A stretch of DNA of 64,000 nt, from positions 1 to 64,000 of the forward strand of contig JANXDU010000018.1 of assembly GCA_025059195.1 (NCBI GenBank). The letters are read 5' to 3'. The stretch is from Candidatus Bathyarchaeota archaeon. Its GTDB lineage: Archaea > Thermoproteota > Bathyarchaeia > Bathyarchaeales > Bathycorpusculaceae. Positions 8,919-26,958 of this stretch are shown here, piece after piece; position 1 is the stretch's first letter, and every line of letters begins with the position of its first letter. The notes under the pieces were generated by a model that made no database searches, was not told the DNA's origin, and saw only the letters and a program-made list of their open reading frames with translations. A program made the position numbers and the translations under genes.

Positions 8919-8928
8919 TTAATATATT
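8919..8928 (+). promoter_or_regulatory. TATA-like box of the GltD-Hdr-hydrogenase operon
   Basis: TTAATATATT, centred about 22 bases ahead of the ATG at 8946, in an AT-rich gap after the RHH-GcvH gene. The spacing would put transcript start at or very near that ATG, so the message may be leaderless; no ribosome site is visible in front of it. Confidence 0.45.
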
Positions 8929-8945
8929 GGGTTGAACACTCAAAT

Positions 8946-10679
8946 ATGCTTCTAAGAAGGGTTGGATCAAGATTGACGGAAAAGGCCAGAAAGTTACCGC
9001 CTTGTCGAGCGGCTTGCCCAGCGCACGTCAACGTCCAAGCTTATGTCGCCTTAATTCAAAGGGGTATGTTTAAAGAGGCCGTTGAGGTTATAAGGCGAGA
9101 TTTGCCGTTCCCAGCCATTTGTGGAAGAGTGTGCTTCAGCCCGTGTGAAGACGCGTGCGCGAGGGTTAACCTTGACCAAGCAGTGGCTGTGCGCGCCTTA
9201 AAAAGGCTTGTAGCGGACATTGAACGCGAACAGGGAAGGGTTGTTGCTCAGCCATTGCCCAAAAAGTACAATGAAAAAGTTGCCATAATTGGTGCTGGGC
9301 CGGCAGGCTTGACGGCAGCCTATGAACTCGCAAAACTGGGTTACCCTGTAACAGTTTTTGAGCGGATGGCTGAACCCGGTGGAATGATGCGATATTGCAT
9401 ACCGGATTTCCGCCTTGAAAAGTTTGTTGTGGCAAATGAAATTGCCTACATAGAAGATTTGGGTGTTGAAATCAAGACTGGAGTAGAATTCGGCAAAGAC
9501 ATAACCGTTGAAAGCCTTAGGAAAGACGGTTATAAGGCGATTTTCATCGCTATTGGAACGCAGCTTGGAATGAAGCTAAACGTGCCCGGCGAAGACTTAG
9601 AAGGCGTAATAAATGCTGTAGACTTTTTGAGAGCCGTTGCGCTTGGAAAGAAAATAGCCGTTGGCGAGAGAGTAGCGGTTATAGGCGGTGGCAACACAGC
9701 CATCGACGCTGCAAGAACCGCCAAAAAACTTGGCGCAAAAGAGGTTATGATTCTATATAGAAGGTCCCGCGAGGAGATGCCGGCGCTTCCCCATGAGGTG
9801 GAGCTGGCTGAAAAGGATGGTGTTAAGTTCTATTTCTTGGTGGCTCCGAAGCAGATTATAGGCGAAAACGGAAGGGTTAAGGCCGTTGAATGTTTAAGAA
9901 TGCGGCTCGGCGAACCCGACGAAACTGGAAGGAGGCGCCCAATACCCATAGCCTTTTCAGAGCATCAATACGAAGTGGATATGGTTATTCCGGCTCTTGG
10001 GCAGGTTGTTGAAACTTCCGTTTTGCCGCCTGAACTATTGAGCAAGGACAAGCGCGGTCCACCGTTGCAAGTCGATCCATTGACGCTTGAAACTGATATT
10101 TCAGGGGTCTTTGCTGGCGGGGATGTTGCCACTGGACCAGCAAGCATCATTGAGGCTGTTGGCGCAGGAAAGCGGGCAGCGGTGTCTATCCACCGCTATT
10201 TGAGGGGTGAGGACCTACGAAAGGATAGGGATGAGGAGAGAATCGAAGAGACTACTTGGGTTAAGGATTGGCGGCTGCTGGAAAAGAAGGAGCGCAGGTA
10301 TGAGCCGCCCGTTGAGAAGCCTCACCTAAGCTTTGAGGAAGCGAAGGCTTATCTTGAAAAGCTGAAGAGTCAAGCTAGATTCGAAGCCTTCCGCTGTTTG
10401 GGCTGCGGTCCGTGCGCTGAATGCCTCGCGGGCATGGAGCTTTGTGAGGGCGACAAGGCTGTTGTTGATGAGGGTAAATGTGTGGGCTGCAATGTCTGCG
10501 CCATTATTTGTCCAGTGGGCGCCATCAAAAAGAACGAGAGAGGAGTAGCTCAGGTTAACGAGGAGCTATGCAAAGGCTGCGGGTTATGTGCAGCACGTTG
10601 CCCTGAACGAGCCATATCCATGCAGAAGCTTTCCAACGAGCAGATATTGGCCATGGTCTTAACAGCCTTGGAGAGGTGA
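8946..10679 (+). CDS. GltD-like NAD(P)H-dependent flavoprotein with C-terminal 2x[4Fe-4S] ferredoxin
   Basis: 577 aa from the ATG at 8946. N-terminal Fe-S domain (Cys20, 24, 59, 63, 67, 71), then FAD motif GAGPAG (116-121), a second NAD(P)-binding motif VIGGGNTAIDAA followed by YRRSREEMPA, the second FAD motif GDVATGPASIIEA, and two ferredoxin motifs at the C-terminus (CVGCNVCAIICP and CKGCGLCAARCP). This is the glutamate-synthase small-subunit/NfnB fold. With no glutamate synthase large subunit nearby and Hdr genes directly downstream, it more likely gives the Hdr complex an NAD(P)H port. A longer TTG start at 8820 would overlap the previous gene and add an unconserved tail. Confidence 0.88.
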   Translation: MLLRRVGSRLTEKARKLPPCRAACPAHVNVQAYVALIQRGMFKEAVEVIRRDLPFPAICGRVCFSPCEDACARVNLDQAVAVRALKRLVADIEREQGRVVAQPLPKKYNEKVAIIGAGPAGLTAAYELAKLGYPVTVFERMAEPGGMMRYCIPDFRLEKFVVANEIAYIEDLGVEIKTGVEFGKDITVESLRKDGYKAIFIAIGTQLGMKLNVPGEDLEGVINAVDFLRAVALGKKIAVGERVAVIGGGNTAIDAARTAKKLGAKEVMILYRRSREEMPALPHEVELAEKDGVKFYFLVAPKQIIGENGRVKAVECLRMRLGEPDETGRRRPIPIAFSEHQYEVDMVIPALGQVVETSVLPPELLSKDKRGPPLQVDPLTLETDISGVFAGGDVATGPASIIEAVGAGKRAAVSIHRYLRGEDLRKDRDEERIEETTWVKDWRLLEKKERRYEPPVEKPHLSFEEAKAYLEKLKSQARFEAFRCLGCGPCAECLAGMELCEGDKAVVDEGKCVGCNVCAIICPVGAIKKNERGVAQVNEELCKGCGLCAARCPERAISMQKLSNEQILAMVLTALER

Positions 10680-10685
10680 TGATGA

Positions 10686-11435
10686 ATGAGTCCAGATGCT
10701 CATCCTCCAAGAATTGTTTGTTTCATGTGTAATTGGGCTTTCTGTGAAGAGGAGATGCGTATACCCTATAACGTTGACATCATTCGCGTCATGTGTGTTG
10801 GAAGGATGGACCCCGTCCTTGTCTTGGAGACTTTTATTAATGGCGCGGAAGGAGTGATGCTGGTTGGATGCAAGCCCTCGGACTGCCACTTTGTCGATGG
10901 AAACCTCCACGCGCAGCGTGCGGTTAAAATGTTGAAGAAGCTTCTGGCGCTGACTGGACTGGAGCCTGAACGGCTAAAGCTTCTGCTCATTTCACCCTTA
11001 GAGGATAGAGACTTCAGCCACTACGCCAAAGAATTCACCGAAGAGGTTTGGAAGCTTGGAAACTCTCCACTAAGCAAGGAGGAAATTGTAGCCAATCTTG
11101 CAGCAGCTAAAGAGGCGGTTTCAGCCTTTAGGCTGCGTGTTTTGCTGGGAAGAGAGGAAGAGCTAACAGAGTTCATGAATGCTTATGGAGAAAAAATTCC
11201 CGAGGAAGAGTTTGAGGCGTTGCTTGACGGCATTGTTAAGGCGGAGTTTATCCGATACAAAATCCACTATTTGACGAGGGTTAAGCCCCGCTCTGTTAAG
11301 GAGCTTGCCCAAATCCTTGGAATAAGACCCTCTGCCGTTTTGAGGCATATAACGAACATGCGGCGGAAAGGCATGATAACCCTCGACAAGGTTGAAGGCT
11401 ACACACCCCTATACAAGGCTTTGGAGGTGCGATAA
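10686..11435 (+). CDS. MvhD domain fused to a C-terminal winged-helix domain
   Basis: 249 aa. Residues 1-135 are the hydrogenase/Hdr iron-sulfur linker MvhD, with Cys12/15/20, MCVGR (Cys37) and GCKPSDCH (Cys62, Cys67); the usual CNWC has become CNWAFC, so one cysteine is shifted. After a charged helical linker, about 185-245 form a winged helix (VKELAQILGIRPSAVLRHI, then RKGMITLDK). A canonical MvhD is also present at 14466, so this one may be a redox-responsive regulator or a specialised adaptor. It sits six bases after the GltD-like gene and one base before the tandem HdrA. Confidence 0.88.
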   Translation: MSPDAHPPRIVCFMCNWAFCEEEMRIPYNVDIIRVMCVGRMDPVLVLETFINGAEGVMLVGCKPSDCHFVDGNLHAQRAVKMLKKLLALTGLEPERLKLLLISPLEDRDFSHYAKEFTEEVWKLGNSPLSKEEIVANLAAAKEAVSAFRLRVLLGREEELTEFMNAYGEKIPEEEFEALLDGIVKAEFIRYKIHYLTRVKPRSVKELAQILGIRPSAVLRHITNMRRKGMITLDKVEGYTPLYKALEVR

Positions 11436-11436
11436 A

Positions 11437-14400
11437 ATGGCGAATGAAAAAGTCGGCGCGGTTCTCGTCGTGGGCGGCGGTGTCGCCGGAATCCAAGCCG
11501 CTCTGGACTTGGCCGATTCAGGCTTTAAAGTGTATATGGTTGACGATTCGCCCAGCATTGGCGGCGTCATGGCTCAGCTTGACAAAACTTTTCCGACAAA
11601 CGACTGTTCCATGTGTATTTTGGCGCCTAAGCTTGTGGCCGCTGGAAGGCATCCCAACATTTCGCTTATTACGAACAGCGAAGTATTGGGCTTGAATGGC
11701 GATGCTGGAAACTTCGAAGTAAAGATTCGAAAGAGAAGCCGCTACATAAACGAAGATAAATGCAACGGCTGCGGGCTCTGCGCACAAAAATGTCCCGTTG
11801 AAGCCATAGACACCTACAACAAGGGCTTAACGGACAGAAGCGTCGTGTACGTGGAGTTTCCACAAGCAGTTCCATTACGCTTCAAAATAGACCGGGAAAA
11901 ATGCATAGGCTGCAGGACATGCCAAGAAGTCTGTAAGGCTAACGCCGTCGAATATGACCAGAAAGACAGCGAAATAACCCTAAAAGTTGGCGCGGTAATT
12001 CTGGCACCTGGCTTTGAACCCTTCGACGCGAGGCTCAAAAGCGAGTATGGTTATGAACGGTATGCAAACGTTGTCACAAGCATAGAGTTTGAGCGTATAT
12101 TGAGCGCTTCCGGCCCTTATGGTGGAATTGTTTTAAGGCCTTCTGACGGCGAGATTCCACGCAAAATTGCTTTTGTCCAGTGTGTAGGCTCTCGGGATGC
12201 TCAGCTTGGAAACCTTTATTGTTCAGCTGCGTGTTGCATGTACAGCATTAAGGAGGCAATAATCGCCAAAGAACACGTGCCAACAAAGCTGGACTGTACA
12301 ATTTTCTACATGGATATTAGGGCTTATGGCAAGGAATTTGACGCCTACTACAAGCGTGCTCAAGAAGAGTATGGTATACGTTTCGTGCGTTCAAGGGTTG
12401 CAAGCATAACGGAGGATCCAGCAACCGGCAACCTGTTCGTCCATTACGTGGGTGAAGATGAAACTCCAAGAGTTGAAGAGTTTGACATGGTTATACTTTC
12501 CACGGGCATGCAGCCGCCGAAAAACGTGGAAAAACTGGCTAAAGCCTTGGGAATAAAGCTTAACAAATATCGATTCTGCGAAACAAGCACCTTCACGCCT
12601 CTGGAAACTTCAAAGTCTGGCGTATATGTTTGCGGCGCGTTCAGCTCACCCAAAGATATTCCGGAAAGCGTTGCCCAAGCAAGTGGCGCAGCGGCCAAAG
12701 CCATGGCAACAATCGCTCCGGAACGGGGCAAACTTGTTGCTGTTAAAGAATATCCGCCTGAACGGGATGTAAGCCAAGAGGAGCCCCGCATAGGCGTCTT
12801 CATTTGCCATTGTGGTATAAACATTGGCGGCATTGTGCGGGTTCCAGAAGTTGTGGAATACGCTAAAACTCTTCCAAACGTTGTTTACGCCGAAGAAAAC
12901 CTTTACACATGCTCTGACGACACCCAGAAGCGGATAAGAGAGAAGATTAAGGAATACAACCTAAACCGCGTCGTTGTGGCTTCATGCACACCTCGAACCC
13001 ATGAGCCGCTCTTCCGCGAAACAGTACGGGAGGCGGGCTTAAACCCATACTTGTTTGAGATGGCAAACATTCGAGACCAGTGCAGCTGGGTGCACATGCA
13101 CGAGCCAGACGAAGCAACAGAAAAAGCAAAAGACCTTGTCCGCTCTATTGTTGCCAAAGCAAGACTATTGAAGCCGCTTAAAAACCCCACAGTGAACGTT
13201 ACACCAGTAGCCCTCATCATCGGCGGCGGAGTTTCCGGAATGACTGCAGCCTTAGAGCTGGCGAATCAAGGGTTTGAAGTTCACCTTGTGGAACGCGAGA
13301 AAGAGCTTGGCGGACACTTGAGGAAAATCCATTACATGTTGGAAGGCGAAGATCCGCAGGAACACCTACAGAGGCTCGTTAAGGCAGTTATGGAAAACAA
13401 GCTAATCCACGTTTACTTAGGCGCTGAAGTTGTTGACGTAAACGGTTTCGTGGGGAACTTCAAATCAAAGATAAGATTGAACGGTGGCGAAGAAAAACAA
13501 GTCGAACACGGCGTTGTTATTGTTGCCACTGGTGCGGTTGAATATAAGCCGAAAGAGTACTTGTATGGTTTGGATCCCCGCGTTTTGACCCAGCACGAGT
13601 TAGAGGAGAAAATTGCCAAGGGCGAGTTTAACGCCAAAAAAGTGGTTATGATTCAGTGTGTGGGCGCCCGAAACGAGGAGCGCCCCAACTGTGCGAGGAT
13701 ATGCTGCGGGCAAGCCATTAAAAACGCCTTGAAAATTAAGGAGCTAAATCCAGACGCTGAAGTTTTCGTCCTCTACAAGGATGTTAGAAGCTACGGCTTC
13801 ATGGAGGAGTATTACCGCGAAGCCGCCGGCAAAGGCGTGCTCTTCATAAACTATTCAGACGGGATGAAACCAAAAGTGTCCAATGAAAACGGAAGATTGA
13901 AAGTGGCTTTTTATGAACCAGTGCTGAAGCAAGAGATTCAAATCGAACCAGACCTCGTTGTCTTAAGCGCCGCGACCATTCCAAACCCGGACAATAAACG
14001 CATAGCTGAAATGCTTAAGGTGCCATTAACAAAGGATGGCTTCTTCTTGGAGGCGCACATGAAGCTTCGTCCAGTGGACTTCCAGACGGACGGCGTTTTC
14101 CTTTGCGGTATGGCGCACTCGCCGAAGTTCATTGATGAAAGCATCGCTCAAGCGTGTGCAGCCGCCGCCAGAGCAGCTACAATACTGTCGAAGAAAGCCC
14201 TTGAAATGGAGGGAATTGTGGCAAACGTAGATGAAGATTTATGTAGTGGATGTAGAATTTGTGAATTTCTATGTCCCTACGGCGCGATTGAAATGATTGA
14301 AAAAGAGGGCAAAACAGTTGCACACGTGATTGAAGCCCTCTGTAAGGGCTGCGGAGTATGCGGCACGGCGTGCCCAACGAAAGCCATAATTCTAGGACAC

Positions 14401-14469
14401 TTTACAACCGAGGAGATTCTAGCTCAGGTTAGGGCGATCTTGCGGGAGATGGAGGTGGCAGCCAAATGA
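11437..14469 (+). CDS. hdrA: Tandem HdrA-HdrA fusion
   Basis: 1010 aa, against about 650 for a single HdrA. Module 1 (about 1-445) starts directly with the FAD motif VVGGGVAGIQ, has NDCSMC (57-60) and an inserted ferredoxin (Cys109/112/115/119, Cys156/159/162/166). Module 2 starts with a full HdrA N-terminal domain (FICHCG, LYTCSDD, ASCTPRTHEP, DQCSW), a second FAD motif LIIGGGVSGM, and lacks the inserted ferredoxin. Two C-terminal clusters follow (CSGCRICEFLC, CKGCGVCGTAC). Two flavins in one chain suggest two bifurcation or entry points. The ATG at 11437 follows the previous stop by one base; an upstream start at 11392 lies inside the MvhD-winged-helix gene. Confidence 0.93.
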   Translation: MANEKVGAVLVVGGGVAGIQAALDLADSGFKVYMVDDSPSIGGVMAQLDKTFPTNDCSMCILAPKLVAAGRHPNISLITNSEVLGLNGDAGNFEVKIRKRSRYINEDKCNGCGLCAQKCPVEAIDTYNKGLTDRSVVYVEFPQAVPLRFKIDREKCIGCRTCQEVCKANAVEYDQKDSEITLKVGAVILAPGFEPFDARLKSEYGYERYANVVTSIEFERILSASGPYGGIVLRPSDGEIPRKIAFVQCVGSRDAQLGNLYCSAACCMYSIKEAIIAKEHVPTKLDCTIFYMDIRAYGKEFDAYYKRAQEEYGIRFVRSRVASITEDPATGNLFVHYVGEDETPRVEEFDMVILSTGMQPPKNVEKLAKALGIKLNKYRFCETSTFTPLETSKSGVYVCGAFSSPKDIPESVAQASGAAAKAMATIAPERGKLVAVKEYPPERDVSQEEPRIGVFICHCGINIGGIVRVPEVVEYAKTLPNVVYAEENLYTCSDDTQKRIREKIKEYNLNRVVVASCTPRTHEPLFRETVREAGLNPYLFEMANIRDQCSWVHMHEPDEATEKAKDLVRSIVAKARLLKPLKNPTVNVTPVALIIGGGVSGMTAALELANQGFEVHLVEREKELGGHLRKIHYMLEGEDPQEHLQRLVKAVMENKLIHVYLGAEVVDVNGFVGNFKSKIRLNGGEEKQVEHGVVIVATGAVEYKPKEYLYGLDPRVLTQHELEEKIAKGEFNAKKVVMIQCVGARNEERPNCARICCGQAIKNALKIKELNPDAEVFVLYKDVRSYGFMEEYYREAAGKGVLFINYSDGMKPKVSNENGRLKVAFYEPVLKQEIQIEPDLVVLSAATIPNPDNKRIAEMLKVPLTKDGFFLEAHMKLRPVDFQTDGVFLCGMAHSPKFIDESIAQACAAAARAATILSKKALEMEGIVANVDEDLCSGCRICEFLCPYGAIEMIEKEGKTVAHVIEALCKGCGVCGTACPTKAIILGHFTTEEILAQVRAILREMEVAAK

Positions 14470-14903
14470 GCGAATCCCAAAAGGATTTTGAACCAAAAAT
14501 TGTCGGCTTCCTATGCAACTGGTGCGCTTATGCGGGCGCGGACTTGGCTGGCGTAAGCCGCATCCAATATCCACCAAACATCCGTGTTATCCGTGTCATG
14601 TGCAGCGGTAGAATAGATCCAGCTTTCATCCTTGAAGCCCTTAAGAATGGTGCAGATGGCGTTTTAGTGGCCGGCTGCCACTTGCCATCCGACTGCCACT
14701 ATTTAAGCGGTAATTTCAAGGCTCTGCGAAGGGTAATGTTATTAAAGAAGGTGCTTAAAGATTTTGGGGTTGAACCCGAACGTGTACGGCTGGAATGGGT
14801 CTCCGCCAGCGAGGGAGACAAATTCGCAGCCGTAGTGCGCGACATGGTTGAACAGATCAAGAAGCTTGGTCCAAACCCGTTGAAAATGGAGGCGAAAGAA
14901 TGA
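14466..14903 (+). CDS. mvhD: Hydrogenase/Hdr iron-sulfur linker subunit MvhD
   Basis: 145 aa, a normal stand-alone MvhD with CNWC, VMCSGR and GCHLPSDCHY. It carries the [2Fe-2S] cluster that connects hydrogenase to HdrA. Start overlaps the tandem-HdrA stop and its own stop overlaps hdrC (ATGA both times), so this is a tightly coupled operon. Confidence 0.94.
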   Translation: MSESQKDFEPKIVGFLCNWCAYAGADLAGVSRIQYPPNIRVIRVMCSGRIDPAFILEALKNGADGVLVAGCHLPSDCHYLSGNFKALRRVMLLKKVLKDFGVEPERVRLEWVSASEGDKFAAVVRDMVEQIKKLGPNPLKMEAKE

Positions 14904-15469
14904 GCGAAACAAGAAGCGAAGCCCGCGAATACGCTCCGCCAGTGATTAAAGCCGAGGAGCTTGACCCGAAATTCAAGTATAAAATAAGCAAGATGCCCGG
15001 TGCAGAAAAGATAATGGCTTGTTTCCAATGTGGCACCTGCACGGCTGACTGTCCCATCGCCAGATTCAGCGAGTTTTACAGACCACGCCGCATAGCCCGC
15101 ATGGTTCAGCTGGGCTTGAAAGACAGGCTTCTGTCGGATAAGGCTTTGTGGCTTTGCTCCGCATGCTTCACGTGCGTGGACCACTGCCCCCAAGATGTGG
15201 AAATAGCTGGAATAGTTCGCGTTCTGCGGAACATGGCGGTAGCCGAAAAGAATGTTCTACCCCTGGTTTACAAGGAGTTAGCCACAAACTTGATGAAAAG
15301 CGGCTTCGTCTACGAGATTCCAGAAACGCGGCTTCAGAAGCGGGTTGAGCAGGGACTACCTCCACTGCCTAAGCCCAACGTGAGCCAAGTTGTTAAAATT
15401 TTTGAGGTTACTGGTTCTGCCCGTTTACTTGAAAAGGTTCAAACTGTCGCTAAGGTGGAAAGTAGATGA
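14900..15469 (+). CDS. hdrC: Heterodisulfide reductase subunit C (HdrC), copy B
   Basis: 189 aa with Cys41/44/47/51 and Cys86/89/92/96 forming two [4Fe-4S] clusters. It has about 20 more N-terminal residues than copy A. Coupled by ATGA overlaps to mvhD before and hdrB after. Role as for copy A: electron wire from HdrA to HdrB. Confidence 0.94.
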   Translation: MSETRSEAREYAPPVIKAEELDPKFKYKISKMPGAEKIMACFQCGTCTADCPIARFSEFYRPRRIARMVQLGLKDRLLSDKALWLCSACFTCVDHCPQDVEIAGIVRVLRNMAVAEKNVLPLVYKELATNLMKSGFVYEIPETRLQKRVEQGLPPLPKPNVSQVVKIFEVTGSARLLEKVQTVAKVESR

Positions 15470-16347
15470 GCAACCCCAAATATCTGCTGTTCCCGGGCTG
15501 TGTAATACCCTACAGGCTTTCAAGCTATGAGATTTCCGCCAGAAAAGTGCTTGCTAAGCTTGGTGTGGAAATAGTGGAGATGCCCGAATATAACTGCTGT
15601 GGCTACCCCATGGACGTTATAAACCATGATTTAATGTTAACGTTAGCTGCGAGAAACCTATGCATAGCTGAAAAAGTGGGTTTACCCATAATGGCGCTTT
15701 GCAATGGATGCTTCTGCAGCCTAAATGAAACCAACAAAATCCTAAAAGAAGACAAGAAACTTCGGGAAAAAATCAACGGCTACTTGAAAGAGGTTGGAAT
15801 GGAGTTTAAAGGCACAACAGAAGTTAAACATCTAGTCTACGTTCTTTCGGAGGATGTGGGTTTCGAGAAAATAAAAAACTCTGTCATAAGACCTTTGGCT
15901 GGCGTTCGCGTAGCCCAGCACAGTGGATGCCACGTTTTAAGGCCTCGCAAATATGTGGGACGAGACGATCCGGAGAACCCGACAACCCTTAAAGAATTGG
16001 TTAGGTTGACTGGTGCCGAATGCCTAGACTACATGGATGAAAGCGCATGTTGTGGAAACCCGATTATAGGTGTTAACGAAGACGTTCCATTCCAGATGGC
16101 TAAGGAGAAACTTGAACACGTGCGGGCTGTGGGCGCCCAAGCGCTTATAACCGTCTGCCCCTTCTGTCATATAATGTTTGACTTAAACCAGCCCCGCATT
16201 GAAAGAGCTTTTAACGAAAAATTCAATTTACCAGTTCTCCATTACCCACAACTTTTGGGGTTAGCCATGGGCTTTTCGCCAGATGAACTAGCTTTAAACG
16301 AGCTTAGAGTTAAACCCACAGAACTGTTAAACCTAATTAAGTTTTAG
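15466..16347 (+). CDS. hdrB: Heterodisulfide reductase subunit B (HdrB), copy B
   Basis: 293 aa. Both noncubane-cluster CCG motifs are complete: Cys12, CCG at 44-45, CNGC at 79/82; and Cys155, CCG at 195-196, CPFC at 231/234. Unlike copy A it keeps the glycine after the first cysteine pair. Followed 16 bases later by the second hydrogenase small subunit, so Hdr and hydrogenase are in one transcription unit. Confidence 0.95.
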   Translation: MSNPKYLLFPGCVIPYRLSSYEISARKVLAKLGVEIVEMPEYNCCGYPMDVINHDLMLTLAARNLCIAEKVGLPIMALCNGCFCSLNETNKILKEDKKLREKINGYLKEVGMEFKGTTEVKHLVYVLSEDVGFEKIKNSVIRPLAGVRVAQHSGCHVLRPRKYVGRDDPENPTTLKELVRLTGAECLDYMDESACCGNPIIGVNEDVPFQMAKEKLEHVRAVGAQALITVCPFCHIMFDLNQPRIERAFNEKFNLPVLHYPQLLGLAMGFSPDELALNELRVKPTELLNLIKF

Positions 16348-18841: not shown

Positions 18842-19333
18842 ATGGCGGAGACTTCTTCTGCCGAGAAAAAGTTGAAAGGTTGGCTTTCCGGTGCCGAACG
18901 GGTTGTGGTTGCTGGAGTGGGGAACCCTATTCGTATGGATGATTTTGTCGGCGTAAAGGTTGTTAGGGATCTGTGTGGGAAAGTTTCGGAGAATGTTTTG
19001 CTTGTTGAGTGTGAGACTGTTCCGGAGAGTTTTCTCCAGCGGATTGTGGATTTTCAGCCTTCTCACGTTTTGATTGTGGATGCAGCAGTTATGGGTTTGG
19101 AGCCTGGCGAGTACCGTTTTGTCCAGTCGGAGCATTTGCGGGTTTTTCCAGCTATTTCGACTCACATGTTGCCTTTGCGGGTTTTCTGTGACTATTTGGC
19201 TGGGGTTATGGGAGCCAAAGTTGGGCTTCTTCTGGTTGAGCCTAAAAACGTGGATTTTGGGGAAGGCTTGTCAGAGGAGGTTGAGGCTGCCAGCCGCCGA
19301 ATTGTTAATTTTTTAGTTGAGGTTCTTCCATAA
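18842..19333 (+). CDS. Hydrogenase maturation protease (HycI/HyaD family)
   Basis: 163 aa. The family signature GVGNPIRMDD, with the nickel-sensing acidic residue, is near the N-terminus; VDAA.MGLEPG and the STHMLPL histidine motif follow. It trims the C-terminus of the NiFe large subunit after nickel insertion, and probably serves both mvhA copies. The ATG at 18842 is preferred because GGAGAT sits eight bases before it; an in-frame TTG at 18827 covers that ribosome site. Confidence 0.9.
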   Translation: MAETSSAEKKLKGWLSGAERVVVAGVGNPIRMDDFVGVKVVRDLCGKVSENVLLVECETVPESFLQRIVDFQPSHVLIVDAAVMGLEPGEYRFVQSEHLRVFPAISTHMLPLRVFCDYLAGVMGAKVGLLLVEPKNVDFGEGLSEEVEAASRRIVNFLVEVLP

Positions 19334-19378
19334 AAAGTTAATTTTGTTGTTGAAGGTGGACTGCAAATTTGGTGGTTT

Positions 19379-20377
19379 CTAGGTTTTGTATTGGTATTTT
19401 ATGTTGTTGTCTATTATGTAAAAGGTGTGCTGGTTGGCTTCTGTTGCGTGGAGGATGGGTTTTGCTAGGATTTCAGCTATTTTCGCTAGGTCTTCTAGGG
19501 TTTTAACCTCTATTGTGGTTTGGGTTGTGGGTGGTTTTTGGGCGGTTTCTGCTATTAGGTCTTTGTGGGGTGCAGTTAGCTTTTCTATGGGTTTTTGGGT
19601 GGTTTTTGGTTTAGTCTTGCTGTGGAGGTATGTGGAGAAGGCCAGTCCGGTTAAGGCTACAGCTGTTAGGCCATAAGCCAAATATCGTTGGTTTACCGTT
19701 TCTGGACGGGTTATTGTTTGGTTTTGGGTTATTTTTCCGGTTTTTGAGTGTTGGAGGGGTTCTAGGTTTGTTGTTTCGCCTTTTTCTGTGCGTTGGAACG
19801 TGATGGTTAGGGTTGGTGTGAAGGTTTGGTGGATTTGTCCAGCTAACGTGTTTGCTTGGACCGTGAATGTTGGCGTGATTTCTAGGGTGTATGCGGTGGT
19901 TGACGTTCCTGTTTCGGCGTCTAATTTGTTTTTGATTTGGTCTAATGTTGCCTTAACTATTGGCGGGAGTGTTATCTGGATTTGTTTTTGGTTTGTGGTT
20001 TTGGAGGGTTCTGTGTGGATTGTGTAGGTCCATGCGGTGGTTTTTATGGTTTGGGTTATGGTGTAGTTTATTTGGGTTTCCGCTGGTAGGTCTGCCTCAA
20101 AATTGTAGGTTAGGGTTAGGTTGATTTGGCGGGTTAGCCTCGTATAGATTGGGGTTTGGTCTTCTGGTTTTAGAATGGTTTTGTTGTTGTAGATTATGTT
20201 TGGTGTTTGGAGTATAGCGGTGTAGTCGTAGGTGGCTGTGCTTGTGTAGGTGCATAAAGTCTGCGTTTCCGTTTCTTCTGTTGGGGTTTGGTGGACTGCG
20301 TAGACTGTTATGATGGAGAGTATTGTTAAAATTGCGAAGGAGGTTAGGAGAATTGTTGTGGTTTTTGGTTCTTTCAT
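19379..20377 (-). CDS. DUF5305-type membrane-anchored extracellular protein
   Basis: 332 aa. N-terminal membrane segment (about 9-29), a threonine/asparagine/glutamine-rich extracellular beta domain to about 235, a second membrane segment (YGLTAVALTGLAFSTYLHS), then a cytoplasmic tail. The CTYTSTATYDYTAIL start and general layout match archaeal DUF5305. Last gene of the minus-strand surface cluster. Family members often occur beside SipW/TasA-like genes, so a helper role in assembly or anchoring is inferred. Confidence 0.75.
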   Translation of the reverse strand: MKEPKTTTILLTSFAILTILSIITVYAVHQTPTEETETQTLCTYTSTATYDYTAILQTPNIIYNNKTILKPEDQTPIYTRLTRQINLTLTYNFEADLPAETQINYTITQTIKTTAWTYTIHTEPSKTTNQKQIQITLPPIVKATLDQIKNKLDAETGTSTTAYTLEITPTFTVQANTLAGQIHQTFTPTLTITFQRTEKGETTNLEPLQHSKTGKITQNQTITRPETVNQRYLAYGLTAVALTGLAFSTYLHSKTKPKTTQKPIEKLTAPHKDLIAETAQKPPTTQTTIEVKTLEDLAKIAEILAKPILHATEANQHTFYIIDNNIKYQYKT

Positions 20378-20465
20378 GTTTCGGCGCGTCCTTCCCTTTT
20401 ATGATTTGGCTTCATCCCTAAAATGTTTTGTTTCCTTTAGGGAAAAAGGGGATGGTTGGCTGGGT

Positions 20466-21350
20466 TTATCCTCCTAGGTTGTTGAAGCCTTCGCACATGT
20501 TTTTCCAGTATTCGTATTGTTTTGTCCAACCGTTGAGGATGGCGTTTTCTGAGCCTTGGATTATTTGTTGGGCTGTCATGCCTTTGTATGTGTAGCCTTC
20601 AGCGTAGCCCGCCACCTGGTTTAGCCATAGAGCCAACAGTTGAGCCTTCAATTTGTCTAGCATGGTTGGGCGTTTTGGCATTTCAAGAATGTCGTAGGCT
20701 TGGGTGAATTTTTGTCTGCGGTTTCCTGTGAACTCGAAGACTTGGGATTGGCTGCTTATTTGGTTTAGGTAGCCTTCAAGGGTTTCAGCCCCTATCTGGG
20801 GTTTGCCGGGCTTGCCTAGGTATGGGGCGAACTGGTTTTTCCAGAATCCTATGGTGCGTGGGTAAGCATAGGGCTTGCATTTGGCGCTTATCCTTATCTC
20901 GAATTCGTATTGCCATTTTTGGCGGGCTGGTTGGAGGATGTGGACTTTTGTTGTGCCCTTTATGGTTTGGCATGGTCCAAGCACTGTGCCAGTGTGGTCT
21001 GTGGTTGTGATTTGTAGGGCTTCTGGGTTGGGGTTTAGTATTGTTACGCTTGTGAATTGAGCTGGGCGGTTGCCTACGTTTTTTATCGTGTAGTTTATGT
21101 GGGCTGTGTAGGATGGGTAGGCGTTTTTTATCACGATTTTTATGGTGTCTTTGTCGTAGGTTATGCGGGCGGTTACGGTGGCTACGTCTTTTTCTATTTC
21201 GTTGTCCCATGCGACGGTTTTTGTGAAGATTAGGTCGCATTTGCTGTAGCAGTCTATTCGGAATCCGCCGTTCCAGCATGCGTAGCTATAGCCTATTAGG
21301 CTTAGGGCGGTTATGGCGAGAATGAGGGAGGCTAAAATTTTTGTTTTCAT
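20466..21350 (-). CDS. Secreted surface protein with SipW-type signal peptide
   Basis: 294 aa. Signal segment 1-24 ends GYSYACW, the same kind of end as its neighbours. Residues 25-165 look like a TasA/camelysin-type beta domain (KIVIKNAYPSYTAHINYTIKN, a strand pattern shared with the pilin-like genes upstream). From about 168 a separate domain begins with the motif RTIGFWKNQ, known from other surface proteins, and is helical. It may be a minor or tip component. Signal cleavage is presumably by the peptidase at 21937. Confidence 0.72.
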   Translation of the reverse strand: MKTKILASLILAITALSLIGYSYACWNGGFRIDCYSKCDLIFTKTVAWDNEIEKDVATVTARITYDKDTIKIVIKNAYPSYTAHINYTIKNVGNRPAQFTSVTILNPNPEALQITTTDHTGTVLGPCQTIKGTTKVHILQPARQKWQYEFEIRISAKCKPYAYPRTIGFWKNQFAPYLGKPGKPQIGAETLEGYLNQISSQSQVFEFTGNRRQKFTQAYDILEMPKRPTMLDKLKAQLLALWLNQVAGYAEGYTYKGMTAQQIIQGSENAILNGWTKQYEYWKNMCEGFNNLGG

Positions 21351-21362
21351 GGTTTTGCCTCC

Positions 21363-21944
21363 TTAGCCGATGGTGCGGGTTATGGTGTATTTTATGGTGA
21401 TGGTTTCTGTCCAAGACTGGAAGGTGGCGGTGTAGGTTACCGTTATCTCGATGGCGGTGTCGACTGGTATTAGTTCGGTGAGCATGGTTATGTTTTGCCA
21501 TGTTATTAGGATTTTTTGGGCTGGGAGTTCTGGCGGTGATGAGGCGCCGCCTGATGGCGGCAGGGTTGGCGAGTTATCCCATTTTTCAGGTGGGACTGTA
21601 GCGTAGGGTCCGTAGTAGAGGGTTTGGGTTTGGAAGCGGTTTTGGGTGTCGTTGGTCTGGGTTGTTTGGGTGATTGTTACTGGAGTTGTGCCAGTATTGT
21701 TTATGATTATTCCTGTCCATAGGGTTTTGTTTTGGGAGTTCATCGTGCCTCTTAGCCATAGCTTGTGGGTTGTTTGTTCGATGACTTGTAGGGTTGTGTT
21801 GTGGGCTTGTAGGGTGATTTGGACTTTCGCTGAGTTTAGGGTTCCTTGGATTTGAAGGGTTTCCTGCCATTTTGTGTAGGCGTATCCTGTTATTGCTAAT
21901 GTTAATAATAGAACTGCGAAGACTGTTAGGATTTTTTTATGCAT
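21363..21944 (-). CDS. TasA/camelysin-like secreted protein
   Basis: 193 aa. Hydrophobic signal 1-20 followed by GYAYTKWQETLQIQGTLNSA, similar in spacing to the HWYE..LWLTGEVNTG start of the genes at 23343 and 23994. The rest is Thr/Asn/Gln-rich beta sequence with a proline/serine/glycine-rich loop near 120-140. Its start overlaps the end of the signal-peptidase gene by 8 bases, so the two are co-translated. Likely a filament or surface-layer subunit. Confidence 0.7.
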   Translation of the reverse strand: MHKKILTVFAVLLLTLAITGYAYTKWQETLQIQGTLNSAKVQITLQAHNTTLQVIEQTTHKLWLRGTMNSQNKTLWTGIIINNTGTTPVTITQTTQTNDTQNRFQTQTLYYGPYATVPPEKWDNSPTLPPSGGASSPPELPAQKILITWQNITMLTELIPVDTAIEITVTYTATFQSWTETITIKYTITRTIG

Positions 21945-23262
21945 TTTTTCCCTCCTTTTTTGTTGTCTTGTGATAAGCGAGTAAGAGGGACGTGTATGCG
22001 GTTAGGGTGAGAAGGGCTGTTATAGGAAGCCCGTTTATGAGGGCGGCTGGTGCATGCTGGGTTAGGGCTGTTGGAAGGGTCTGGGCGATGAAGGTGTAGG
22101 CGGCTGTGGCGGCTTCTTTTAGGGTTATGCTTACCCAGCCCAGTTTGGGGATGGTGAATATTACTTTGCCTTTTACTTGGTTTTCGTTTATTGGGTCGTC
22201 TGGGGCGTTGTTGGCGTCGCCTTGGGTTATGAACCATGTTGTTCCGCCTGACTCGTATTTATCTATGACTCGGTGGATGATTGGGGGTTCTCCGCTTGCC
22301 CTATAGTATTGGATTATGTCGCCTACTCGAATGGCTTTTGCCGGCGTGGAGAGGACTATGGCTATGTCGCCTACATTTAGCGTGGGGGTCATGCTTCCGC
22401 TGGCTATTATGGTTGGCGTGAAGCCCAATAAGCCTGTTGTGCTCCAGACGGCGATTACGGCTATTAGGGCTATAACTGTCCAGTGGGTGGCTTGTTTTTC
22501 GCCTTTTCTTGTCAGGTGGAGGCGGGTTTGGCGGCGGTGTTTGGCGGTTGGCAGCGGTTTTACGGCGGCGTCTAGGAGTAGGAAGCCTACCGTGGCGCCT
22601 ATCACGGTTAGTATGGAGCTTGTTTGCCATGGGAGGTTTGGCAGTATGGGGCTGAACCATGTGAAGAAGGTTGGAACTGCCATATACGCCAAGTTTGCGG
22701 GTAAAGCGCCCAAATAGGCGAAGTAGGTGGCTAGGAGGCTTGTGGCTAGGGTTGGTATGAATGTGCGTATTAGGAATTCTGCTATGGCGAGCGGCGATGT
22801 TAAGCCTTGGTATTGGGGGACCGTCGCCTTTAAAAGTGCGTAGAATAAGCCCGTGAGGAGAATGGCGGTTGTTGGTTTGTGTTTGCTTGCTGTTTGGGCG
22901 AGGTAAGCCCGCGAGATTTCAGTTGCAAGGAAAGGTGCAAGCAAAAATGGGAAGTATATGGCTATGGCTCTGGGCGTCCAGACAAGGCTGTTTCTGCCGA
23001 AGCCCATGAAAAAAGCCATGAAAACGGATAAGGAGACTTGGAATATGGCGATTATTGTGGCAAGTTGGATTAGGGTTTTATCCGTTTTTAGTAGGTTGGT
23101 TTGGGAGTTTTTAGCTGTCAAAAGTGTTAATGGGATTACGGTTGCCCATAAGAGGGTGTCCACAATAAAAATTAGTTCACCCCTAAAGGCATAGGGGACT
23201 ATTAGATTTGTGAGTAGGTAAACGGTTAAGATTAGGGCGGGAATTGTTAATTCGGGTTTCAT
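21937..23262 (-). CDS. SipW-type signal peptidase I fused to an N-terminal multi-membrane-span domain
   Basis: 441 aa, against about 180 for ordinary SipW/archaeal signal peptidases. Residues 1-235 hold about six to seven hydrophobic segments with no recognised catalytic motif. A linker (KHRRQTRLHLTRKG) and a further span (261-280) lead into the S26B peptidase: SGSMTPTLNVGD with nucleophile Ser290, IIHRVI with His330 (histidine replaces the bacterial lysine, as in SipW and ER types), and QGDANNAPD with Asp349/Asp355. Placed among genes with matching signal peptides, it is the likely dedicated processing enzyme. Confidence 0.88.
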   Translation of the reverse strand: MKPELTIPALILTVYLLTNLIVPYAFRGELIFIVDTLLWATVIPLTLLTAKNSQTNLLKTDKTLIQLATIIAIFQVSLSVFMAFFMGFGRNSLVWTPRAIAIYFPFLLAPFLATEISRAYLAQTASKHKPTTAILLTGLFYALLKATVPQYQGLTSPLAIAEFLIRTFIPTLATSLLATYFAYLGALPANLAYMAVPTFFTWFSPILPNLPWQTSSILTVIGATVGFLLLDAAVKPLPTAKHRRQTRLHLTRKGEKQATHWTVIALIAVIAVWSTTGLLGFTPTIIASGSMTPTLNVGDIAIVLSTPAKAIRVGDIIQYYRASGEPPIIHRVIDKYESGGTTWFITQGDANNAPDDPINENQVKGKVIFTIPKLGWVSITLKEAATAAYTFIAQTLPTALTQHAPAALINGLPITALLTLTAYTSLLLAYHKTTKKEGKNA

Positions 23263-23342
23263 ATTACTTATTCCAGTGAATGTTTTTGAGTGAGATTAAA
23301 ACTAAAAGGGGGGAGATGGGTTTAATGTTTGGCTTTTGCCGT

Positions 23343-23972
23343 TTACTCGTTCCAGTTCACCATTATAATGGTGGCTGTGAACTTGAGTTTTGTGTTTTCT
23401 GGGCAAGGTTGCAATACGTGTATGTCGAAGCTGATGTCTACTCGTCCACATGGGTCTACTTGTTGTCCGAAGTTGTTGCCCCAGTATAGTTCAATGTCTG
23501 CTTTTTTGTCGCCGTTTAGGTCTAATGTTAAGTAGCTTGGTTTTGTAATTGATTTGGTTTCGTATGGTGTTGTGAAGTTTACGCGTACTATTTTCCATGG
23601 TATTGTTCCGCAGTTGTGTATCCAGAAGGCCATGTGTTCATAGTAGCATGGATACACGTTGTTTAATTCCACAACAAGCGTGTCATTGCAACCGTCTTTA
23701 TTAGTGTCAATGAAGTATGCGTTGCTACTGCCTATGTCCTTGTTTATTTGGCGGACATTGTTAAAGCCTTCGTCGCATGTCCAGTCCTTTCCTGTGTCTG
23801 TTCGTGTTACAATTCCCCAGAAGCGTGCGCACAGGTTTCCCGTTTTCACTTCGCCGGTGAGCCATAGGTTTTCGTACCAGTGGGCGTAGCTGAAGCCTAC
23901 GATGGCTAAGGCTATTAGAGTGATGGCTAATATTGCGGGCAGTGCGGTTTTAGACTTTTTTAGGAGCGCCAT
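23343..23972 (-). CDS. TasA/archaeal-bundling-pilin-like secreted protein with calcium-type loops
   Basis: 209 aa. Basic start, hydrophobic signal to Ala30, then HWYENLWLTGEVKTGN, almost the same as in the next gene (23994). Contains DTNKDGCND (89-97) and DLNGDKKAD (151-159), aspartate-rich loops like EF-hand or dockerin calcium sites, and a conserved NCGTIPWK. Several cysteines could form disulfides. Beta-rich, about the length of TasA-type subunits. Paralogue of the gene at 23994. Confidence 0.75.
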   Translation of the reverse strand: MALLKKSKTALPAILAITLIALAIVGFSYAHWYENLWLTGEVKTGNLCARFWGIVTRTDTGKDWTCDEGFNNVRQINKDIGSSNAYFIDTNKDGCNDTLVVELNNVYPCYYEHMAFWIHNCGTIPWKIVRVNFTTPYETKSITKPSYLTLDLNGDKKADIELYWGNNFGQQVDPCGRVDISFDIHVLQPCPENTKLKFTATIIMVNWNE

Positions 23973-23993
23973 AGGTTATCACCTGCTTGTCTG

Positions 23994-24563
23994 CTATGGG
24001 ACGGCGTTCCACTCCACAAAGGTCAAGTCAATGCGTATTGTTAGGTAAGCGTTTTCGGGAGCATTTTGTGTGAAGTGTATATAGAAGTTTAGGCATAGGC
24101 TTTTGTCTGGGTCAATCTGGTTGGGGTTGCCAACAAGTTTTGTTTTGAGCTCTATGCCTTCTTTCCACCAGCCATCTGGTTTGCCTTCAATGCTTATGCT
24201 GGAAGTCCATAGTTTCGCTGGGATTGTTCCACAGTTGGTAACGTCAAGGGTGCCGTTAATCCATAGGCTTGGATAAGCATTCCAAACCCAAACCTTTAAG
24301 CCTTCATAGCAGCCATCGCCATCACCATCGACAAATTCGTGTTTAACGATGGCTACTGGATCATCCACTTTGCCGTCGCCGTCCAAGTCTTTTAGGTTGC
24401 CAGGCCAAACGTCGTAGTCTAGCGACCATTCTAAGCATAGGCTTCCCGTATTCACTTCGCCGGTGAGCCATAAGTATTCATACCAGTGGGCATAGGCGAA
24501 TCCCGCTATGCCAAGCGCCAACATTAAAATTGCAAATGTTGCAGCCAACTTCTTAGTGTCCAT
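23994..24563 (-). CDS. TasA/archaeal-bundling-pilin-like secreted protein with calcium-type loops
   Basis: 189 aa. Signal to Ala25, then HWYEYLWLTGEVNTGS. Two aspartate-rich loops, DLDGDGKVDD (59-68) and DGDGDG (79-84), and NCGTIPAK shared with the gene at 23343. Probably a major or alternative filament subunit. Its promoter carries the 36-bp element at 24591-24626, which puts a TATA-like box about 37 bases ahead of the ATG. Confidence 0.76.
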   Translation of the reverse strand: MDTKKLAATFAILMLALGIAGFAYAHWYEYLWLTGEVNTGSLCLEWSLDYDVWPGNLKDLDGDGKVDDPVAIVKHEFVDGDGDGCYEGLKVWVWNAYPSLWINGTLDVTNCGTIPAKLWTSSISIEGKPDGWWKEGIELKTKLVGNPNQIDPDKSLCLNFYIHFTQNAPENAYLTIRIDLTFVEWNAVP

Positions 24564-24590
24564 TTTACCGCATCACTCTCCTTTCTCCAT

Positions 24591-24626
24591 TTGGGTATAT
24601 TTAACGTGCCCCACCCTCGGCACGGG
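24591..24626 (-). promoter_or_regulatory. 36-bp promoter element with palindrome, copy 1
   Basis: Identical over 36 bases to 25449-25484. On the minus strand it reads as a palindrome, CGTGCC-8 bases-GGCACG (24605-24624), directly followed by TTAAATATA, a TATA-like box, and then the gene at 24563. The palindrome is placed just upstream of TATA, where an archaeal activator or repressor could act. Confidence 0.7.
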
Positions 24627-24788
24627 TTAGGCCGCGCGGCCCAACCATTATATACAGCCGGCCATAAAGCCTAACCAGCAATAATGTGTGATTACCCATC
24701 CATATAAACCCCCATGAAACAAAAGTCTAGAACAAAAGACTAGAAAAATAAAAGGAGAGTTAGGAAGCTCGAAAGAAATGTTTCCCCG
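24627..24788. other. Intergenic region with possible minus-strand terminator
   Basis: Between the gene at 24789 and the copy-1 promoter. It holds an imperfect repeat TCTAGAACAAAAGACTAGA (24726-24744 region), which reads on the minus strand as a weak 5-bp hairpin flanked by T-rich tracts and could end transcription of the upstream gene. A GC-rich patch next to the promoter (GGCCGCGCGGCC) is a further perfect palindrome of unknown meaning. Confidence 0.35.
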
Positions 24789-25424
24789 CTACACCGCTTG
24801 AACCACATTAAGCGTTATCTTAAAGCTAACGGAGGCCCCCTCAAACCCGCTCTCAGCCGCTGCATCCATTTCCAGATAAGCGTAAACGGCATACCAATCG
24901 CCCGGCGCAAAAACAACCTGCGGCACACCATGACTAGCATAATCCAACTCATAACCATTCCAAGCCCTCAAAGTATTCTTGAAATAGACAACATTGTTCC
25001 AGCCCGTAGCCCACTTGTTCGGTGCATCCACATTTACGCCTGGAATGCCAAAGTAAATCACACTCGTAAGGTTGCCAGTATCAGAGGTCACGTCAATCCT
25101 CATAGACTTGATTTTAACCGGCAAACTGCCAGTGTTCTTTATGGCTAAGCCCAATATGCCCTTAGCCCCAGCATAAAAGTTCCCCACCGTAACCGTCGCC
25201 TCATAAACATAGTTTGGGCCCCGATAGCCACTAACAGAAACCCCCTGAGGAACAAGGAAACCATGCATACAAAGGCGGCCCTGCTCGTCGACAAGCCACT
25301 CTACCGCCACGGTGCCAGTGCTAACCGTCGTATACACGTATGTCTTCTCCATGAATAAGGCGTAGCTAACGCTGACGCCGAGCAAAGCCACCATCAAAAT
25401 TGCAAATACGTTAACAGCCCTCAC
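24789..25424 (-). CDS. Secreted surface protein, SipW-substrate-like
   Basis: 211 aa. Signal ends near SVSYALFMEKTYVYTTVSTG; the pattern aromatic-Ala followed about 15 residues later by STGT resembles the cluster's other subunits but lacks HWYE. The rest is beta-rich (LGLAIKNTGSLPVKIKSMRI is typical of CalY/TasA-like domains). First gene of the cluster, with the copy-2 36-bp promoter element just upstream. Codon use is more ordinary than in the 19.4-23.3 kb part. Confidence 0.7.
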   Translation of the reverse strand: MRAVNVFAILMVALLGVSVSYALFMEKTYVYTTVSTGTVAVEWLVDEQGRLCMHGFLVPQGVSVSGYRGPNYVYEATVTVGNFYAGAKGILGLAIKNTGSLPVKIKSMRIDVTSDTGNLTSVIYFGIPGVNVDAPNKWATGWNNVVYFKNTLRAWNGYELDYASHGVPQVVFAPGDWYAVYAYLEMDAAAESGFEGASVSFKITLNVVQAV

Positions 25425-25448
25425 TTTACTCCCTCCCCCTCACTCCTC

Positions 25449-25484
25449 TTGGGTATATTTAACGTGCCCCACCCTCGGCACGGG
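25449..25484 (-). promoter_or_regulatory. 36-bp promoter element with palindrome, copy 2
   Basis: Exact copy of 24591-24626, again with CGTGCC and GGCACG arms (25463-25482) next to TTAAATATA, 25 bases or more ahead of the ATG of the gene at 25424. Two such exact copies ahead of two paralogous-role genes point to shared control. Confidence 0.7.
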
Positions 25485-25643
25485 CCAGACGGCGGCTCTC
25501 CACCTCAACTGGACGCCACCATCCAACCAAATCAGTTTATCTCAAATTTCCCATAAAAATCTTAATGGAAAAAAAACTTCTAGTAGAAAATGTCCCCAAA
25601 ACTTAAAACCATACCAAAAGTCTAGCCTAAAAGACCTTAACCC

Positions 25644-25650
25644 TTTATAA
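25644..25650 (+). promoter_or_regulatory. TATA-like box of the small winged-helix gene
   Basis: TTTATAA within the gap 25485-25696, about 50 bases before the TTG start at 25697; expected transcript start near 25673. The rest of the gap is AT-rich with short direct repeats (CTTAACC occurs twice) and no gene seen. Confidence 0.4.
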
Positions 25651-25696
25651 GCAACGAAACCTTAACCATTTTCAAGCCCTCCGGAAGGTTAAACCT

Positions 25697-26086
25697 TTGT
25701 CCACGAAACTGGAGAAACTGCTAATGCTTCTCAACGACAACCAATGGCACAGCATAAACCAAGTTGCAGAAACCCTCGAAATCCCACCAGAAAAAGCCCA
25801 AAAAATAGTAGAAATCCTAACGGAAGCCGACATGATTCAACACAACTCCGCCACAAACCAAGTAAAACTAAACCAAAACTGGAAAACCCTCATCATAAAC
25901 CAAAGGGAAACACCCTCAGAACAAGAGCCAACACCAGCCACAGCCATAGCCACCATAATAATCCCACCCCAGAAAACATTAACCATCCAACAAACCCGCA
26001 TAACAAACCTAACAGACACCAGCTTAGAACTGGAAATCCGAATAAACAAAAAACTAAACGAAATAGCAATAAACAAAATCAACTAA
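25697..26086 (+). CDS. Small winged-helix-like protein, possible regulator of the surface cluster
   Basis: 129 aa. Residues 5-60 look like a winged helix (WHSINQVAETLEIPPEKAQKI, then LTEADMIQHN), followed by a Pro/Thr linker and a beta-rich tail of about 50 residues. TTG start supported by GGAAGGTT a few bases upstream; an ATG nine codons in is an alternative. Divergent from the surface genes and convergent with the next winged-helix gene, with stops overlapping by four bases. Confidence 0.6.
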   Translation: MSTKLEKLLMLLNDNQWHSINQVAETLEIPPEKAQKIVEILTEADMIQHNSATNQVKLNQNWKTLIINQRETPSEQEPTPATAIATIIIPPQKTLTIQQTRITNLTDTSLELEIRINKKLNEIAINKIN

Positions 26087-26361
26087 ACAGACAAAAACTC
26101 GCCAGCCTTCTCCAAAATTTTAAGAAGCTCCCGCCCCTTCTCCGTAGTCCTATACAAAACAAAGCCTTCTCCCGGGTTGCCGCCAACCTGCTCCAACAAA
26201 CCAGCATCCAACAACTCCTTCAAATAACGGTTAAACCGCCCAAAATTCAAGTTGCAACGATACATAAGCCTAGTTTTGTTAGCGCCATCCAAAGCTTCCC
26301 TCAAAATCTCCCCAATAACCTCAACCCGACTACGCCTACGCCTCCCCCCACACCAGCCCAT
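26083..26361 (-). CDS. Winged-helix DNA-binding protein (HTH_45-like)
   Basis: 92 aa. The pattern RSRVEVIGEILREALDG, NKTRLMYRCNLNF, FNRYLKELLDAGLLEQV and YRTTEKGRELLKIL is the common archaeal single-domain winged helix. Start taken at the ATG at 26361; an upstream TTG at 26382 adds seven residues of unlikely composition. A probable local transcription regulator, target unknown. Confidence 0.75.
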   Translation of the reverse strand: MGWCGGRRRRSRVEVIGEILREALDGANKTRLMYRCNLNFGRFNRYLKELLDAGLLEQVGGNPGEGFVLYRTTEKGRELLKILEKAGEFLSV

Positions 26362-26448
26362 AGCAAACCACAAACTCAACAAACACTAATACAAGAACAT
26401 AAATGTAAACGTTTTCAAACAAAATAGAAAGGATGGAAAAGAAGGCGC

Positions 26449-26958
26449 CTAAGCCGATGGCGCCGCCTTCAAGACTTCCTGGAAAAGCTTCTTAGTAGCC
26501 GTTATACGAGCCTTCTGCGCTAACACATCCGCCGTCACAAGGTCTAAGGCTTCCTCTGGACACCACTTAACACACTGAGGACCGTCAGGCTTATCCTTAC
26601 ACAAGTCACAGACAAAAACAACCTTCTTATCCGGATGGAGCATAATCGCCCCGTAATCACAAGCCTCGATACACCATCCGCAACCGTTGCACTTATCCTC
26701 ATCCACCAAAATCGTGCCATTCTCCTCAGACTGCGTCAGCGCGTCTCTGGGGCAAGCAGCCACACACGGCGGATCCTCACAAAGCCTACAAGTAATGGAA
26801 ACGTTGACCAACGGATTAAGCCTAACAACCCTAATCCTCGACTTCAAAGGATTAAAAGCCTTCTCCTTAGTCCAAGCGCAAATATACTCGCATATCTGGC
26901 AGCCGACACACTTTTCCGGATCAACCGAAACAAACCTTCTCTCATGAATCTTAACCAT
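26449..26958 (-). CDS. Polyferredoxin (four [4Fe-4S] motifs), partner of the AOR-family enzyme
   Basis: 169 aa from the ATG at 26958, which has GGAGG eight bases before it; an ATG at 26973 overlapping the AOR stop (ATGA) is an alternative. Cysteine motifs: CVGCQICEYIC, CRLCEDPPCVAACP, CNGCGWCIEACD and CDLCKDKPDGPQCVKWCP. The HycB/DmsB-like fold carries electrons from the tungsten enzyme encoded just upstream to other carriers. Confidence 0.88.
   Translation of the reverse strand: MVKIHERRFVSVDPEKCVGCQICEYICAWTKEKAFNPLKSRIRVVRLNPLVNVSITCRLCEDPPCVAACPRDALTQSEENGTILVDEDKCNGCGWCIEACDYGAIMLHPDKKVVFVCDLCKDKPDGPQCVKWCPEEALDLVTADVLAQKARITATKKLFQEVLKAAPSA

Follow-up and report, generated by a model that had tools for sequence, protein, structure and literature searches.

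A block of seven minus-strand genes at positions 19379-25424 of a 64,000-nucleotide (nt) stretch from a Candidatus Bathyarchaeota archaeon (assembly GCA_025059195.1, contig JANXDU010000018.1, positions 1 to 64,000; the whole stretch is called the window here) is very probably an expanded operon for fibres of the AbpX type, which resemble archaeal bundling pili. The source is a draft genome of 1.37 Mb in 36 contigs, 92% complete. A preliminary description of the sequence had named, on one strand, five secreted proteins with similar signal ends together with a peptidase of SipW type and a DUF5305 protein, and an open reading frame check of the window returned all seven genes. The assignment to AbpX is carried by homology over the full subunit domain. 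In a single-sequence phmmer search of the PDB, the 189-amino-acid (aa) protein had AbpX as its top-ranked match (E=0.0011), and the 209-aa and GFWKN proteins also matched AbpX, weakly, at the same core motif. A profile built from seven relatives matched AbpX in hmmsearch with E=4.8e-15 over residues 26-187, the whole mature domain. With subunit profiles of 32 and 74 rows the E-values were 1e-13 and 2.6e-18, and the larger profile also reached TasA weakly (8aur E=0.034, 5of1 E=0.073). The features are as follows:

19379-20377, minus strand: DUF5305 protein of 332 aa, a member of PF17231 (63.2 bits, cut-off 29)
20466-21350, minus strand: GFWKN subunit (AlphaFold2 model with a mean predicted local distance difference test score, pLDDT, of 80.8; subunit-family profile match at 1e-45)
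21363-21944, minus strand: 193-aa subunit of lineage B with the mature end KWQE (profile matches; supported tree clade)
21937-23262, minus strand: signal peptidase of 441 aa (TIGR02228, archaeal/ER-type signal peptidase I, 99.6 bits, cut-off 51.85; PF10502, 23.7 bits, cut-off 22.9)
23343-23972, minus strand: 209-aa AbpX-like subunit with the mature end HWYENLWLTGEVKTG (A4, A6 and A10 profiles to AbpX)
23994-24563, minus strand: 189-aa AbpX-like subunit with the mature end HWYEYLWLTGEVNTG (phmmer and profile matches to AbpX given above)
24580-24636, minus strand: first copy of an upstream element, with the palindrome CGTGCC-n8-GGCACG at 24605-24624, then TTAAATATA
24789-25424, minus strand: 211-aa subunit of lineage C with a GTG start and the mature end LFME (profile matches; likely a separate upstream unit)
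25438-25494, minus strand: second copy of the upstream element, with the identical 20-nt palindrome at 25463-25482
25697-26086, plus strand: divergent winged helix-turn-helix (wHTH)-like regulator of 129 aa with a TTG start, a neighbour of most of the fetched Bathyarchaeal clusters

The motif HWYE..LWLTGEV.TG, which had been noticed in two of the secreted proteins, is shared well above chance, as the mature 189-aa and 209-aa proteins align with z=29 over shuffles. The same comparison gave z=10.5 for the mature 209-aa and GFWKN proteins and z=6.7 for the 211-aa and 193-aa proteins; the remaining pairs are not clearly significant pairwise, yet they are joined by the profile. The motif aligns with the N-terminal donor strand of AbpX: HWYEYLWLTGEVNTG falls on QWSETLSLSATISTG, which is the start of the AbpX chain in 9sj2, and in the alignment to 9sj2 and 9rhp the donor strand stands right after the signal peptide. 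In 9rhp the same 15 residues sit at the C-terminus of the chain, a position which suggests that the construct carries its own complementing donor strand. Judged by this alignment, the shared motif is the predicted donor strand together with the residues around the cleavage site. ABPx is a donor-strand exchanged fibre of Pyrodictium abyssi according to a citation in PMC11952670. AbpX is cited there (reference 35) from Pyrodictium work, and the cannulae of Pyrodictium are donor-strand structures too. The cluster could on this ground give rise to a donor-strand assembly other than bundling fibres, for example tubes between cells that resemble cannulae. We regard this as highly improbable, because AbpX is what the sequences match and every PDB profile search was without a cannula subunit.

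For AbpX-type fibre formation we propose that each of the five subunits would be exported by Sec on its N-terminal hydrophobic helix and that the Ser/His peptidase of the operon would cut behind a small residue, so that the mature chain begins with x-W/F. Its N-terminal strand of ~16 residues (HWYE..LWLTGEV.TG), now free, would complete the open beta-sandwich of the following subunit by insertion, and the subunits would polymerise without chaperone or usher. The five old paralogues would probably share one mixed fibre, at an end of which the GFWKN protein would be cap or adhesin. DUF5305 is a membrane protein produced together with the peptidase and would probably act as cell-side base or assembly factor. 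The divergent wHTH protein and the palindrome upstream of both units would probably set expression.

The signal ends agree with such processing. The pattern small-x-(A/S/T)/x-W/F is present in 114 of 119 family rows, three of the other five being incomplete rows, and the P1'-P2' residues of the five window proteins are HW, HW, KW, CW and LF. An aromatic P2' residue makes TasA a poor substrate for the ordinary peptidase and thereby dependent on SipW (PMC10269814). At the level of sequence, aromatic P2' residues and a dedicated peptidase in the operon are what SipW-dependent export would call for. The suggestion that the block has its own SipW-type peptidase was borne out, as the enzyme is a Ser/His peptidase of the SipW-like archaeal type encoded inside the operon, although it scores 53.1 bits against the 190 required by the SipW equivalog model NF046067. 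It consists of an N-terminal domain with multiple transmembrane (TM) segments (~1-240) and a Ser/His S26 catalytic domain with the motifs SGSM at 288, HR at 330 and GDA at 348. Other members of the phylum have this membrane domain of ~240 residues as well, with Glu115 and Arg118 invariant. Three genomes (G041, G009, G133) have a short peptidase and a separate adjoining CPBP/Rce1-like gene instead, and two of these separate genes pass PF02517. The N-terminal domain of the window peptidase has no Pfam match, but it aligns collinearly with the separate CPBP genes in hhalign (59% probability, E=9.4e-5, 183 columns), so that a distant relationship to CPBP/Rce1 is plausible. Same-genus genomes carry a second, housekeeping peptidase, and G001, a same-genus genome without the cluster, has that one alone; in the window's own, incomplete genome no peptidase was found besides that of the cluster. 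At another locus (L055, 3029-4027, plus strand) a SipW-like peptidase has, in its C-terminal part, a match to the SipW-cognate signal model and a weak one to PF12389, and it is possibly a peptidase fused to a camelysin-like domain.

Structure prediction of two subunits gave beta-sandwiches with a free N-terminal segment. The AlphaFold2 model of the 189-aa protein (seven sequences, mean pLDDT 67) has a signal helix at 3-24, an unpaired stretch at 25-43 and beta strands at 44-184, and the predicted donor segment is of low confidence and unpaired in this monomer. In the model of the GFWKN protein (74 sequences) the signal helix is followed by an eight-strand sandwich at 40-158 and six helices at 166-290. 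As to a TasA-like jelly-roll, both models are sandwiches, but TasA is absent among the Foldseek matches listed. The best Foldseek E-value was about 1e-3, to other proteins; the top matches (viral envelope proteins, adaptin ears, TRAP) were regarded as noise or as beta-sandwiches of a generic kind and set aside.

The five subunits are old relatives rather than recent copies. In a maximum-likelihood tree of 69 subunits they occupy five separate positions, and recent tandem duplication was rejected as their origin for this reason. The 209-aa protein groups with the second core-locus subunit of other families (support 97/94). For the 193-aa protein the grouping is with additional subunits from other clusters (95/92), while the exact place of the 211-aa and 193-aa rows is unsure owing to long branches. 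That the paralogues are not recent copies argues for specialised positions in one fibre or for several fibres, and their old separate lineages suggest a mixed fibre. The positions conserved best across the subunit family include the Trp of the donor strand and the YP and N-G-P core. Subunits at some core loci elsewhere (L151, L152, L158, L159, L166) have 418-502 aa, about double the usual length, and are perhaps double-domain subunits. Weak Pfam and NCBIfam matches (flagellin, UpsA, FG-GAP and others) were put down to chance or to composition.

The GFWKN domain, for which no Pfam model matched, is also found in longer proteins elsewhere. In the window its helical part (166-290) is joined to a full sandwich, whereas at three f36 loci proteins of ~190 aa carry a signal and donor strand directly followed by the GFWKN domain, without a sandwich. 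Such a protein could give a strand and take none, and it should therefore sit at the fibre end, a position likewise proposed for TapA and for Saci_0405 (PMC9715654 for Saci_0405). This suggests that the GFWKN protein of the window may be a minor or terminal subunit, that is, a cap or adhesin.

DUF5305 recurs beside the peptidase or the subunits throughout Thermoproteota. The window protein has an N-terminal TM segment, an extracellular domain, a weaker hydrophobic segment at ~233-252 and a cytosolic tail. In a survey of 397 Thermoproteota genomes, in which the subunit profile and DUF5305 were scored over the same set, subunits occurred in 54 genomes and DUF5305 in 47, and both in 27 against 6.4 expected (hypergeometric p=8e-15, uncorrected for relatedness). 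Forty loci were fetched, about half of them picked because both matches were already known; the peptidase is present in 38. The usual core order is a subunit of ~190 aa, a subunit of ~230 aa, a peptidase of ~400 aa and DUF5305, and 19 of 23 peptidase-DUF5305 pairs overlap or lie <=25 nt apart. Nine more subunit loci (L129-L136, L139), which had not been preselected for both matches, have a DUF5305 that Pfam missed and a sensitive profile detected. Furthermore, at L055 a CalY/TasA protein passing PF12389 (48.9 bits, cut-off 22.5) and a SipW-like peptidase are followed by DUF5305, and at L059 DUF5305 follows a similar pair. The Pyrobaculum-like f35 loci and the f36 loci are mostly without detectable DUF5305, which is thus frequent at subunit loci, not universal. 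Because the core of two subunits, peptidase and DUF5305 extends across Thermoproteota, DUF5305 appears to be a dedicated partner of the fibre, and it would probably serve as its membrane base or assembly factor. A different role, in which DUF5305 reports assembly to the cytosol via its conserved tail as a signalling or quality-control partner, is less probable. The C-terminal cytosolic segment EDL.K.A..L.KPI...FY..D...Y.Y is indeed among the best conserved parts, and the protein is without detectable homology to the subunits; its ectodomain is conserved too, however, and across the phylum it has neither a kinase nor a regulator as a constant partner next to it. The ectodomain had been considered as a relative of the subunits and was rejected, as the TM segment alone aligned. 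No mention of DUF5305 was found in the open-access literature searched; Wang 2022 and the Sleutel Pyrodictium paper lie outside it and may overlap. By eye, the DUF5305 gene of L058 (8245-9246) lies within a run of head-tail-virus-like genes (3934-15614), and next to the regulator gene of L020 (12331-14670) there are two more genes of this kind; a provirus may adjoin or carry some of these loci.

Several results weigh against an AbpX-type fibre operon. PF12389 has no match in the genome at 0.001 and none among the window proteins at E<=1, and the window proteins stay below the curated cut-offs of the TasA/CalY (PF12389, NF046066) and SipW-dependent models. AbpA was not matched in any PDB search, and Foldseek searches of both models against the PDB gave no significant match to TasA or AbpA and none at all at E<=0.001. 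DUF5305 shows no detectable homology to the subunits outside the TM segment, and in some genomes it occurs without nearby subunits. Moreover, monomeric self-complemented surface proteins would yield the same sequences. The five proteins could accordingly be SipW-processed adhesins near the membrane or associated with the S-layer, whose strand folds back so that no fibre forms, with the paralogues as surface antigens. Several diverged paralogues with different inserts, one of them with a non-sandwich domain, would suit this idea, as would the initial characterisation of the camelysins of bacteria as surface proteins. TasA monomers, moreover, can self-complement (PMC9715654). We nevertheless consider it rather improbable: AbpX, the nearest relative of solved structure, forms a donor-strand fibre (PMC11952670), the Trp of the donor strand is conserved along with the core, and the core of two subunits plus peptidase is stable across the phylum.

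Compared with known systems, the cluster would thus belong with AbpX-type fibres and work like TasA, while the curated models place it outside the TasA/CalY family. AbpX (PDB 9sj2, 9rhp) is homologous over the whole subunit including the donor strand, and its mature end also starts with x-W. It differs in that one solved subunit stands against five diverged paralogues here, one with a helical GFWKN domain, and in that the lineage of the cluster is Bathyarchaeota. The AbpA bundling pilus of Pyrobaculum calidifontis is similar in concept, being described in the literature as an archaeal donor-strand fibre related to TasA, but it was not reached by sequence from the window subunits; a PDB profile search from Pyrobaculum-like subunits returned AbpX alone. 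TasA-TapA-SipW of Bacillus subtilis and CalY share the pairing of a subunit with a dedicated SipW-like peptidase, the aromatic P2' residue, the conserved proline before an Asn-Gly turn and a distant profile match. In contrast, the window proteins fail the PF12389 cut-off, no TapA homolog was recognised here, and the tapA-sipW-tasA operon is without DUF5305 and the CPBP-like membrane domain. The Sulfolobus threads (Saci_0406/0405) are likewise archaeal donor-strand fibres with a putative cap gene (PMC9715654), but no sequence link to them was found, and no dedicated peptidase or DUF5305 is described there. The preliminary description had seen a cluster like TasA or bundling pilins. This is supported by the AbpX matches (E=4.8e-15 to 2.6e-18), the aromatic P2' residues, the Ser/His peptidase and the conserved co-localisation, but not by the curated TasA/CalY models: TasA is reached marginally through relatives (11 of 74 rows match TasA/CalY at E<=1, best 4.3e-5) and through L055, and AbpA not at all. 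Likewise, a new type of fibre was too strong a claim, as the donor-strand fibre type is already known; additional paralogues, a GFWKN domain and DUF5305 as partner make the cluster a new variant within that type.

The block lies between hydrogenase genes on one side and an oxidoreductase/ferredoxin pair on the other. It starts at 19379 as originally delimited, but the end first given, 25484, is 60 nt past the GTG start of the 211-aa gene at 25424. Orthologs in same-genus genomes keep the order, many at about 80-90% identity, and the seven genes can therefore be taken as real. G001 lacks the cluster despite being 96% complete, so that its presence varies within the genus. The intergenic gaps are, in coordinate order, 88, 12, -8, 80, 21 and 225 nt: the six lower genes are tightly spaced (-8 to 88 nt), the 211-aa gene lies 225 nt upstream of them, and after another 272 nt comes the divergent wHTH gene. 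The block therefore likely comprises two transcription units. Both are preceded by the 57-nt element, whose copies are 86% identical and share the 20-nt palindrome CGTGCCGAGGGTGGGGCACG, with TTAAATATA after it. Among 21 genomes the palindrome (<=2 mismatches) occurs at fibre loci only, with two sites here, two in G003, one beside the regulator gene in G002 and, in G041, one ahead of the CalY-like gene at L055; the reversed palindrome, searched as a control, gave none. The palindrome may be an operator beside a TATA box or an RNA hairpin, and an Rfam scan of 19300-26500 returned nothing credible. A second repeated element, CAAAAGTCTAG......AAAAGAC, lies farther upstream of both units (24720-24753 and 25615-25635) and is a possible regulator site. 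The divergent wHTH gene belongs to the locus; its Pfam HTH matches are weak. Neither this gene nor the repeated upstream element figures in the preliminary description. Adjoining it, 26083-26382 (minus strand) encodes an Sso10a-family wHTH/chromatin protein (74.7 bits, cut-off 60) that is kept in G002 and G003.

The loci bear on how archaeal donor-strand fibres can be attached to the cell, and their growth begun and ended, when neither chaperone nor usher takes part; for the Sulfolobus threads the assembly pathway is called unknown (PMC9715654). The recurring four-gene core, found in Thermoproteota and in uncultured Bathyarchaeota, makes DUF5305 a named and deletable candidate for the base, and the GFWKN protein with a donor strand only is a candidate for the cap. 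We would give even chances to the wider view that donor-strand fibres across much of Thermoproteota are built from a dedicated kit not yet described as such, with paired subunits, a peptidase joined to or beside a CPBP-like domain, a DUF5305 base and, in some lineages, GFWKN caps or adhesins, of which the Bathyarchaeal operon would be a five-subunit mixed version. TasA-like matrix fibres would thereby be extended to an abundant and mostly uncultured archaeal group, and the general core with DUF5305 would be a more valuable result than the cluster itself.

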